A stretch of DNA of 39,802 nt from Gammaproteobacteria bacterium (GTDB lineage Bacteria > Pseudomonadota > Gammaproteobacteria > Pseudomonadales > Azotimanducaceae), in contig JAPPAV010000072.1 of the NCBI GenBank assembly GCA_026705345.1, forward strand, positions 1 through 39,802, in the 5' to 3' direction. A program made the position numbers and the translations under genes. The notes under the pieces were generated by a model. That model did not search any database. It worked only from the letters and a program-made list of their open reading frames with translations, and had not been told where the DNA came from. Shown in pieces: positions 36,991 through 38,924 of this stretch; the stretch's first letter is position 1; every line of letters begins with the position of its first letter.

Positions 36991-37025
36991 CCGGCAGGGG
37001 TCGTTGCCCGGCACACGCCGTACGG

Positions 37026-37082
37026 TCCAACGCGAAGTGAGGGTGAGGCCAAAGGCGATTCCAATGCGAAGTGAGGGTGAGG
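37026..37082. repeat. Two 23-bp direct repeats upstream of glnS
   Basis: TCCAA(C/T)GCGAAGTGAGGGTGAGG occurs at 37026-37048 and 37060-37082, with a single mismatch and an 11-nt spacer (34-bp period). The copies lie about 50-105 bp upstream of the predicted glnS start site. They could be regulatory or a remnant of slipped duplication. Confidence 0.8.
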
Positions 37083-37189
37083 ATGCCCGACGGGTGCACA
37101 TCGGATTCGTGGTAGGTTGCGACAAACCCCGTCAGCAGGTCGACGCTGGTTGACGCTCAACCGTGGTGGCTGCCCCGCCGACCCGAAGA

Positions 37190-37930
37190 CTAAGCGGTAG
37201 CGGCCCGCCGCCCACCCCAAGTGCCCGGCACCTCCGCCGGATCCACCAGCCCGATCCGCCGCCACCCCGTCTCCAGCAGCCACGTCCGAGGCTCCGCCAC
37301 CTCGCAACGCCGGAACGCGTCCGCGTACTTCCCAAGCCGCGGCGGCGACCGCCCGTTCCAGCCGTCAAACCACAACCCCGAACTCGCCCCGTCCAAAACG
37401 ACCGGCGGCTTCCGCCCGCGACGCTCCCGGTAGTGCTTGCGCGCGTTCAGCAGCACGTACGCCAGGGCGTTGCGAACCTCCGTCGGCGTCCGCTTGACCA
37501 CGTGGTGGAACCGCGTCGCCAGCACCCGCCCCGCGCGCTCGTACACCCGGTTCACGCACCGCGCGAACCGCGCGCCGAGGCTCTTCATGCCGTTGGCGAG
37601 ACTGAGCTTGTCGTCCGCCTCCACCAGGAAGTGGGCGTGGTCGTCCTGGACGGAGTAGTGCACCACCCGGAACCCCGGCCGCTCGGCGGCCTTCCGCAGC
37701 GTCTCCCGGAACGCCCGCACGAAGCGCGCCCGGCGCAGCGCCGGCACCCCGTTGAGCACGCGCAGGGTCACCAGGAGCGGACAGCCGCGGGCAATGTCCT
37801 CCCGCGTCCGGTGCGGAACCCGCGACTTCCGGACCCTTGGGCGGCCCGCGCCCGGGCGGGCGCCGCCGCGGCCCGTCGGCCGGAACTCGAACGTGGTCTG
37901 GCGGGGGTCCTGGCGGCGCTTCCTCTTCAC
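37190..37930 (-). CDS. REP-associated tyrosine transposase (RAYT, IS200-like Y1 family)
   Basis: 246 aa from a GTG. An N-terminal basic GGARPGAGRP segment, typical of RAYT proteins, precedes the Y1 transposase core. The HUH-type metal site is DDHAHFLVEADD (H98, H100). The likely catalytic tyrosine is Y158 in ALAYVLLNARKHY. The context ARFARCVNRVYERAGRVLAT and RFHHVVKRTPTEVRNALAYV is typical of the family. RAYTs are domesticated single-copy transposases that cut single-stranded DNA at REP hairpins and spread them. Three hairpin elements lie in the gene-free stretch immediately upstream (38116-38663) and are candidate substrates. There are no IS ends or second ORF. Confidence 0.92.
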   Translation of the reverse strand: MKRKRRQDPRQTTFEFRPTGRGGARPGAGRPRVRKSRVPHRTREDIARGCPLLVTLRVLNGVPALRRARFVRAFRETLRKAAERPGFRVVHYSVQDDHAHFLVEADDKLSLANGMKSLGARFARCVNRVYERAGRVLATRFHHVVKRTPTEVRNALAYVLLNARKHYRERRGRKPPVVLDGASSGLWFDGWNGRSPPRLGKYADAFRRCEVAEPRTWLLETGWRRIGLVDPAEVPGTWGGRRAATA

Positions 37931-38115
37931 TGCGGGGTCACCGGTCGGGTACTGCGGATGTCCGGCAGTCTACGCCTGACTACTGTACATGTCAACAGTA
38001 TCGGTGCCGTTCGACGAAGTCTCCGCGGCCAATGAAAAGGGCGATGTTGTCCCGCCGCCGGGTGCCCGCCGCGATCGGGTCGCAGCCAGACCTCGAACAG
38101 AGCAACCGCGGTCGC

Positions 38116-38190
38116 GCGTTTTCCACGCTTCGTCCACGGCGCCGGTCCCCAGTCGAACCGGAGGCGCGGTGGGCGAAGGGTGGGAAACGC
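38116..38190 (+). repeat. REPIN-like hairpin element, copy 1
   Basis: A 22-nt left arm (38116-38137, starting GCGTTTTCCACG) pairs with a right arm (38169-38190, ending GTGGGAAACGC), 19 of 22 positions, around a 31-nt spacer. Two of the three mismatches become G-U pairs in RNA. The sequence after the right arm (ACTCCGC...ATTGA) is shared with copy 3. Confidence 0.75.
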
Positions 38191-38223
38191 AACTCCGCAT
38201 CCCGATTGAGCGGGTGTCGATGG

Positions 38224-38270
38224 CAACTGAAAACTGCACATGCCCGGCAACCGAAAAACGCACACTTTCG
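38224..38270 (+). repeat. Pair of similar 23-24-nt repeats (GCAACYGAAAA-type)
   Basis: GCAACTGAAAACTGCACA (from 38224) and GCAACCGAAAAACGCACA (from about 38249) are adjacent direct repeats. The 'GAAAA-N-GCACA' pattern recalls multi-repeat ends of IS21-type elements, but no transposase gene is present, so that link is only a guess. Confidence 0.5.
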
Positions 38271-38425
38271 GGGACGTCGTCGGGACGGTATCGACGACAT
38301 CCGGGCGACCGGTACGGCGTTGGTGCGATGTGCGGAATTGAAAGGGGCGATGTTCCGGACCGAGGCGGGGCAGGTCGCACCTGTGTTCGTTCCGTGCCGG
38401 TGCTGCTTCCCGACGATCCGGCCCC

Positions 38426-38500
38426 GCGTTTCCCACCGCCTGCCCACCGCCGCTGCATTTGTCTGGGGGATCGCGCCCGTGGACAGCCCGTGGAAAACGC
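38426..38500 (-). repeat. REPIN-like hairpin element, copy 2 (inverted)
   Basis: The same 75-nt layout in opposite orientation: arms 38426-38447 and 38479-38500, 18 of 22 positions paired, 31-nt spacer. At three arm positions (13, 15 and 16) it differs from copy 1 on both arms so that pairing is kept. Confidence 0.7.
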
Positions 38501-38587
38501 TCCCTGCCAAGTCCGCCACCGAGCCGTTCGCCCGAGCCGCGGGCACTCCGGTTCCGCCGTGCGTTCGACCCCTGCTCCACCGCCGGC

Positions 38588-38663
38588 GCGTTTTCCACGT
38601 TTCGTCCACGGCACCGGTCCCCAGATAAACCGGAGCCCCGGGTGGTCGAAGCGTGGGCAACGC
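38588..38663 (+). repeat. REPIN-like hairpin element, copy 3
   Basis: 76 nt with arms 38588-38609 and 38642-38663, 18 of 22 positions paired. The spacer begins GGCACCGGTCCCCAG, close to GGCGCCGGTCCCCAG in copy 1. It is followed by ACTCCGC and then the GGGCGATGTT motif. Confidence 0.75.
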
Positions 38664-38924
38664 TACTCCGCCTCAATTGAATGGGGCGATGTTTTGTCGG
38701 GCTATCGTCCTCCGCGCATCGACAGACACCCGGCCTAGGTTTGATTCGGGCGATGTTCTCTCGCCGGTTGCCGCTGCGATCCGAATGTCGCCCGACTCGG
38801 CGGTCCACGGCGGGCGGTCGCCGGGTACACGCCTTGGTCGGCGAACTCGAAGCGTGCTTCCTTCCTCGACCACATCGCCCTCGCCGGCTACTCTCTACGG
38901 GCGTTATTCGATCGATAGGGTGCG

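Follow-up and report, generated by a model that had tools for sequence, protein, structure and literature searches.

A RAYT-like gene and its array of long hairpins probably constitute a multicopy insertion sequence-like element in a gammaproteobacterial lineage

RAYTs are described as domesticated transposases, usually stationary and present as a single copy. REPtrons and their TnpA-REP proteins are the closest systems described so far. According to one study, class 2 TnpA-REP genes are of low copy number, except for those of subclass 2.3, and the REPtron does not transpose as a unit (PMC6006769). The same study gives Y---NP as the class 2 signature, describes W94 and Q95 as well conserved in the subclasses having typical REPs and different in subclasses 2.1, 2.3 and 2.6, and mentions no identifiable REP-like flanks for subclasses 2.1 and 2.3 (PMC6006769). 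In further reports, the 5' head of a REP is GTAG, or GT(A/G)G, situated beside the palindrome (PMC2817692, PMC3686654, PMC8266576). Here we describe a RAYT-like gene accompanied by longer hairpins. The explanation that we favour, and hold to be probable, is that the locus represents one copy of a multicopy IS-like element, in which a LexA-promoted RAYT gene and an array of hairpins and GGGCGATGT repeats move together. The literature searched, most subscription journals being outside its coverage, describes neither this hairpin nor a RAYT element that is both multicopy and LexA-controlled.

The window, i.e., the whole stretch of 39,802 nt analysed here, is contig C132 of the source genome (G000; 5.07 Mb in 151 contigs). 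Its RAYT-like Y1 (HUH) transposase gene (37190..37930, minus strand) encodes 246 aa, with the HUH motif reading HAH at residue 98 and the catalytic tyrosine being Tyr158 in AYVLLNA. The protein matches Pfam Y1_Tnp (E 1.4e-7; 32.1 bits against a cut-off of 23), and its 42.8 bits with NF047646 (REP_Tyr_transpos; E 4.6e-11) stay under the curated cut-off of 80 bits and consequently below the threshold of the RAYT family. The best PDB match of its AlphaFold model in Foldseek was 4er8, a RAYT-REP hairpin complex (E 3.5e-4), the model itself being poor (pLDDT 44), and the PDB search by sequence retrieved IS200-type transposases only (E 0.25). The HUH motif, the catalytic tyrosine and the RAYT fold, the last as displayed by the pLDDT-44 model, are those of Y1_Tnp/RAYT proteins and support the assignment of the product as a predicted RAYT-like HUH protein. 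At the position of the class 2 signature the window has YVLLNA, with the Asn kept and the Pro absent. Between the HUH motif (98) and Tyr158 the translation contains neither Trp nor Gln, and the guide-reading residues W94 and Q95 of E. coli TnpA-REP are therefore missing.

Three hairpins are located on the 5' side of the gene: h1 (38116..38190, plus strand, 75 nt), h2 (38426..38500, minus strand, 75 nt) and h3 (38588..38663, plus strand, 76 nt), h3 being of the h1 subtype. The RAYT gene and the three hairpins of 75-76 nt had been proposed in a sequence-only reading of this DNA, and both were confirmed, the gene by the Pfam match and the hairpins by single-stranded DNA folding (z = -5.2, -3.5 and -3.2 for h1, h2 and h3, with 0, 0 and 1 of 200 shuffles folding at least as well). 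The suggestion that they may form an undescribed class is supported in so far as they are longer than the 20-40-nt REPs. GGGCGATGT direct repeats are found on the plus strand at 38039..38047, 38345..38353 and 38684..38692, and an outermost one at 38748..38756 is the apparent far edge of the element. The array h1-h2-h3 together with these repeats is the repeated unit, larger than the three hairpins first described. Between h1 and h2, a stretch at 38211-38331 recurs on contigs C106, C103 and C12 and resembles the terminus of a further IS inserted within the array.

The pairing of the hairpin arms is conserved. Compensatory changes between copies 1 and 2 had been claimed from the sequence alone, and at arm positions 13, 15 and 16 the two copies indeed differ with the pairing kept; at position 14 the pair is lost (T-A to G.G). 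An alignment of 30 diverse copies has 93.6% of its cells paired, two-sided changes in 14 of the 25 pairs (reached by one of 500 shuffles) and a covariation of 0.362 vs. 0.133 (reached by 0/500), this set (A3) having been picked from hits of a structured model and hence being biased towards pairing. For a first, less diverse set of 48 copies, the paired cells and the covariation were both beyond the shuffles (0/500), and the six pairs with two-sided changes were no better than the shuffles (422/500 reach six). Sequence is conserved in two TCCAC boxes of the left arm, 11 nt apart and near-invariant in the 30 diverse copies, in a T.G wobble at column 7 and in a CCCC loop. The two boxes would suit double-stranded sites that a host protein binds and that recombination would have carried from element to element, the tandem TTNTCCACG pairs possibly resembling DnaA boxes. 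However, the two-sided changes that keep the pairing are expected of a folded single strand, and we consider such a duplex site very improbable. The integron attC reading was likewise weighed on motifs only. The only Rfam models returned for the hairpin were two miRNA models, far below their cut-offs.

With the window RAYT protein (P0001) as a query, tblastn of the source genome gave 26 matches on 20 contigs, a single copy in some cases accounting for more than one match. Identity to the query is 79-93% for most, and C136 carries a remote relative (40-47%). In 17 of the 20 contigs the matching stretch runs up to a contig end, and residue 151 is a start or end point shared by five (C4, C21, C26, C29 and C103), a pattern expected when an assembler collapses near-identical copies. 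The window copy is the only complete RAYT in the assembly, C121 having 237 of the 246 aa at a contig edge; by eye, 14 distinct 3' ends of RAYT could be told apart, their flanks being different. A second Y1_Tnp gene of this genome (G000:C29:82860-83183; 37.2 bits) lies outside the P0001 matches.

The layout h1(+) h2(-) h3(+) with GGGCGATGT direct repeats is the same on several other contigs. An extra hairpin is found 3' of the RAYT stop codon in C121 and C26 (approximately 35 nt downstream in both), C38, L103, L112 and L113, and the hairpin model has no match at this position of the window copy. The 5' and 3' hairpins of L103, L112 and L113 are in opposite arm orientation, so that the RAYT-like gene is flanked by long inverted repeats as in TIRtrons; L112 and L113 are internally deleted copies having hairpins at both ends. 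Beside the RAYT 3' end of the window there is also a near-identical pair of 23 nt (TCCAAYGCGAAGTGAGGGTGAGG; 37026-37082), and similar DNA occurs on C106 and C38.

Further hairpin copies, anticipated by the sequence-only reading, are present throughout the source genome. With up to three mismatches allowed, and both left and right arms included, the 22-nt arm has 39 matches, against 0 for the reversed pattern, and the whole-genome search with the hairpin model yielded 37 distinct places on the same contigs as 39 hairpins mapped (raw model totals, 55 here, 27 in G012 and 6 in G021, count both strands, and distinct places are used instead). Of the 39, 19 share a contig with RAYT sequence and 20 do not. 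For 37 of the 39, the stretch that holds the hairpin also includes RAYT sequence or GGGCGATGT repeats, and we read these hairpins as element parts; the remaining two (in C41 and the middle one of C123) follow istB. REPINs, in comparison, are dispersed, RAYT-independent inverted pairs at ordinary intergenic sites, and the initial view of the hairpins as REPINs or free REPs is not supported. The classical REPtron/REPIN arrangement, in which the RAYT stays in place and short hairpins (REPs) are moved by it in trans all over the genome, would be consistent with inverted hairpins that flank a RAYT and in part carry a GGAG/GTAG head, and with the inverted hairpin pairs of approximately 210-250 nt that are repeated in G009. 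Nevertheless, we regard it as unlikely: most of the pairs displayed for G009 are bordered by these element repeats, some with a LexA-type box, the RAYT is multicopy together with its array, and the hairpins of the source genome keep to this array and to istB.

Comparison of the window flanks in the relatives points in the same direction as the copy number. Of the nine window-flank loci compared, those of G002, G003, G004, G008 and G011 display both flanks, and the insert is absent in 5/5 (a single flank was seen in G006 and just a 59-nt match in G007, and loci L152-L155 of G013, G009, G007 and G012 stand outside the flank comparison). The gaps at these orthologous loci are approximately 37-374 nt vs. 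1.9-2.6 kb at the window locus. Measured against the shorter gap of G003 and G011, the insert covers approximately 37017..38840, with inexact edges and possibly other repeats included. G003 and G001 likewise lack the C39 array. At both loci the inserts are visible, the exact element ends and the target sites being blurred by flank divergence and contig breaks. Some insertion sites are common to several species, namely a ferredoxin-like flank (L016 and L108) and an enoyl-CoA-hydratase-like flank (L022, L082 and L086; names given by eye), and part of the copies is therefore old. A multicopy RAYT, at a locus that lacks the insert in relatives, departs from the low-copy gene and immobile REPtron of class 2 TnpA-REP. 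Gene and hairpin array would accordingly behave as one multicopy IS-like element, which we judge probable, this estimate being meant for the favoured explanation as a whole.

The LexA box of the window (TACTGTTGACATGTACAGTA; 37981..38000, minus strand) is located 50 nt before the GTG start of RAYT and overlaps a -35-like TTGACA (37995-37990), which is followed after 17 nt by TAGACT (37972-37967; read by eye). The exact pattern TACTGTN8ACAGTA has four sites in the genome (C12, C122, C123 and C132), all of them at RAYT copies. One mismatch adds six places: the RAYT array of C31, a site 46 nt upstream of recA, another preceding an imuA-like gene by 36 nt (gene name assigned by eye; Pfam SulA match of 20.7 bits, below the cut-off of 23.1) and three with no recognised SOS gene (C20, C128 and C134). 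Sites with two mismatches are mostly noise (34 vs. 43 in the reversed control). A CTG-N10-CAG box is present in 10 of 11 genuine RAYT upstream regions from six genomes, L226 being without it, a count that omits nine rows (C57 and C121 loci) in which the RAYT start is at a contig edge. On the strength of these boxes, the RAYT promoter seems to be under LexA/SOS control. A LexA-like box with two mismatches (L281:1448-1467) also lies 29 nt before a DUF222-HNH gene of the source genome (ORF 1497-2999), and the DUF222-HNH genes of G021 have a similar dyad between hairpin and gene. More mobile genes of the lineage may be SOS-controlled.

Hairpin model R1 matched 13 of 38 genomes; 12 of these are among the 16 of the genus, and the other, G021, belongs to another genus. 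P0001 matched 10 of the 16 genomes of the genus (fragments only in four: G001, G004, G006 and G011), and of 15 loci found in the GTDB collection, 14 came from MAGs labelled Gammaproteobacteria and one (48% identical) from a Kofleriaceae MAG, the names of the bins hinting at a possible sponge origin. The link between hairpin and RAYT drawn in the sequence-only reading stands in part. The four members of the genus free of hairpins (G005, G010, G014 and G015) are also free of matches to the window RAYT, another Y1_Tnp gene being present in G005, G010 and G014. On the other hand, 17, 4 and 3 distinct hairpins are carried by the single-contig genomes G012 and G013 and the draft G021, respectively, where the Y1_Tnp search had no match, with a Pfam model that sees the window RAYT weakly and that a divergent RAYT could escape. 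The hairpin is accordingly not specific to RAYT, occurring as it does in genomes without a Y1_Tnp match.

Other mobile elements are the usual neighbours of these hairpins. In G012, 16 of the 17 adjoin transposase sequence (L183 had no hit): four rve-type IS, 10 ISNCY-like elements (some only relics), one remote ISNCY-like element (33%) and one IstB; the rve matches are below the Pfam cut-off, and ISNCY-like is our own label, not that of a model. By the same labels, three of the four G013 hairpins adjoin ISNCY-like elements, and the fourth adjoins an rve-IS relic. All three G021 hairpins, as well as three G009 copies, are 5' of DUF222-HNH genes. The C41 hairpin of the source genome lies approximately 36 nt after the istB stop and an istB frame of C123 runs into the hairpin, istB being named by eye in these two and by Pfam in L161. 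Hairpins approximately 14-39 nt 3' of unrelated transposase stops are seen at the rve-IS, ISNCY-like and IS21 elements of G012, at IS21 of the source genome (C41) and at IS110 of G323. This position, and the similar one 3' of RAYT in C121 and C26, would suit a role in ending transcription, in insulation or in stabilising mRNA 3' ends, with mobile genes retaining the hairpins as protection from read-through and RAYT not recognising them. Yet there is no U-tract in the hairpin flanks inspected, the TCCAC boxes, the T.G wobble and the CCCC loop are conserved beyond what a terminator needs, and h1-h2-h3 arrays stand 5' of RAYT; a role of this kind appears rather improbable to us.

The IS21-type hairpins in G000 and in G009 are in accord with their element (96%), and most hairpin copies may therefore simply have been inherited. 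Between G012 and G013, the ISNCY-like hairpins are 86% identical. The nearest relatives of window h2 are in G001 (95%) and G009 (92%; 5' of DUF222 genes), its subtype being close to hairpins of G001 and of the DUF222/rve loci of G009, and h1 is outside its five nearest. Between the G012 rve-IS (L159) and its G013 relic (L184), identity is 80% over 40 residues of the transposase C-terminus and 81% over approximately 120 nt of the element end beyond the hairpin, with hairpins that are only 64% identical. The former hairpin is 96% identical to an ISNCY-like hairpin of G012, and the latter 90% to the hairpin at IstB in G012 (L161) and 93% to L183, a copy labelled IS21 from its hairpin alone. These discordant hairpins, one clear case, are apparently a sign of module exchange between elements.

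The absence of a typical GTAG start, noted in the sequence-only reading, was due to the inspection of one strand. On the RAYT coding strand (minus), GGAG is found at or 2 nt from the 5' foot of all three window hairpins: at 38193..38196 near h1 and 38666..38669 near h3, 2 nt from the foot in both cases, and at 38500..38503 for h2, where the last G is the first stem base. Over the source genome GGAG accompanies 10 of 11 h2 rows, 13 of 21 rows labelled h1/h3 (opposite strand; the 21 include L048, a 3' hairpin) and, among the 3' hairpins, those of C121 and C26 and not that of C38 (2/3). Copies of the GCG type have GGAG in G001 (4/4), GGAG or GTAG in G009 (3/3), GTAG in G012 (14/15, including one copy that a script's regular expression assigned to the h1-like class) and neither in G013 (3/3). 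The tag is present in 2/8 (G003), 2/7 (G004) and 0/1 (G011) of the h1-like rows and in 0/4 RE-like rows in the script's frame, the G003 and G004 examples of which read GGCG|GAGTT, one base beyond. Only one of 64 GGGTT-type rows has GGAG or GTAG. These counts are suggestive of a GGAG/GTAG head that is not defining for the hairpin family.

Beyond the genus, R1 matched six of 368 other genomes of the class, and R2 five in a second draw of 368 with a completeness limit, four of these five having been used to build R2. For G310, which is independent of the building of R2, E improved from 4e-5 with R1 to 4e-10 with R2. The hairpin of G323 is just 3' of the IS110 transposase, that of G395 just 3' of a Dam-family methylase, and those of G211 and G310 are at contig ends. 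A distant hairpin (L312; G338:C35) resides on a probable plasmid, a contig whose genes include ParA-, ParB- and Rep-like ones (by eye). The G308 match of the class scan (L242) was set aside by eye as another palindrome, that genome falling outside the R2 draw through the completeness limit. RAYT had no match on plasmids at 1e-5, and distant blastn with the hairpin stretches L241 (plasmids and phages) and L161 (plasmids only) found none, the window hairpins being outside this query set. Two viral contigs matched by a 17-mer had no R1 match at E 0.1 and were set aside as chance. It is conceivable, and we put it forward tentatively, that the 75-nt hairpin is a general module of gammaproteobacterial mobile DNA, swapped among Y1/RAYT, IS21, ISNCY-like (as we label them), rve-IS, IS110 and DUF222-HNH elements and a plasmid-like contig. 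Selection on the folded strand, via a host factor or a trans-acting HUH enzyme, would keep it, and SOS-controlled RAYT elements would be its most successful carriers.

For the multicopy IS-like element that we favour, the following course may be envisaged. On its 5' side RAYT is bounded by the mosaic array of imperfect 75-nt hairpins and GGGCGATGT repeats; several other copies carry one more hairpin, which bounds the 3' side as well. DNA damage would induce RAYT, judging from the LexA box. By the precedents of RAYT and IS200/IS605, the protein would recognise the hairpins in single-stranded form, on the strand that encodes it, the GGAG foot possibly acting like the GTAG guide of REPs, and cutting and rejoining would place gene plus array at a new site. 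The hairpins also seem to serve as modules, their family being found in unrelated IS and HNH elements of the genus. A RAYT gene that has multiplied with its hairpins and is seemingly SOS-wired could be a link between insertion sequences and REP systems. A hairpin family common to several unrelated IS also raises the question of what acts on the hairpin, and whether RAYT moves hairpins in trans.

The element shares several features with known systems. Like REPtrons, it has an HUH-Y1 protein of RAYT-like fold, inverted hairpins flanking the gene, mosaic BIME-like arrays and a tetranucleotide beside some hairpins (PMC2817692, PMC3686654, PMC6006769, PMC8266576). In contrast to these REPtrons, the RAYT described here is multicopy and carries its array, the hairpins are approximately 75 nt instead of the 20-40 nt of REPs and are common to other IS, GGAG replaces GT(A/G)G at the window hairpins, and the W/Q residues are absent. 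TIRtrons/TIRYTs similarly have a RAYT-like gene between long inverted repeats, some self-complementary, and form moderate families in dimers or clusters (PMC3733652). Mobility as a unit, LexA control and repeats common to other IS do not feature in the TIRtron description consulted (PMC3733652). The GGGGWSAS motif, given there for some TIRs, is missing from the window hairpins (PMC3733652); its one match, at 37934, is outside them, and the motif was dropped as a link to TIRtrons. IS200/IS605 elements have in common with the element a Y1 transposase, hairpins at both ends and internally deleted copies keeping both ends, whereas the element has Y---N instead of Y---Q, tandem hairpin arrays and 22.6 bits with the IS200 model against a cut-off of 55. 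ISCR transposases are also HUH enzymes, and ISCR elements are IS91-like. LexA control of the transposase gene is a feature that the SOS-regulated ISCR transposases share with the window locus, and what sets the latter apart is that the gene is a RAYT accompanied by a hairpin array (PMC13393415).
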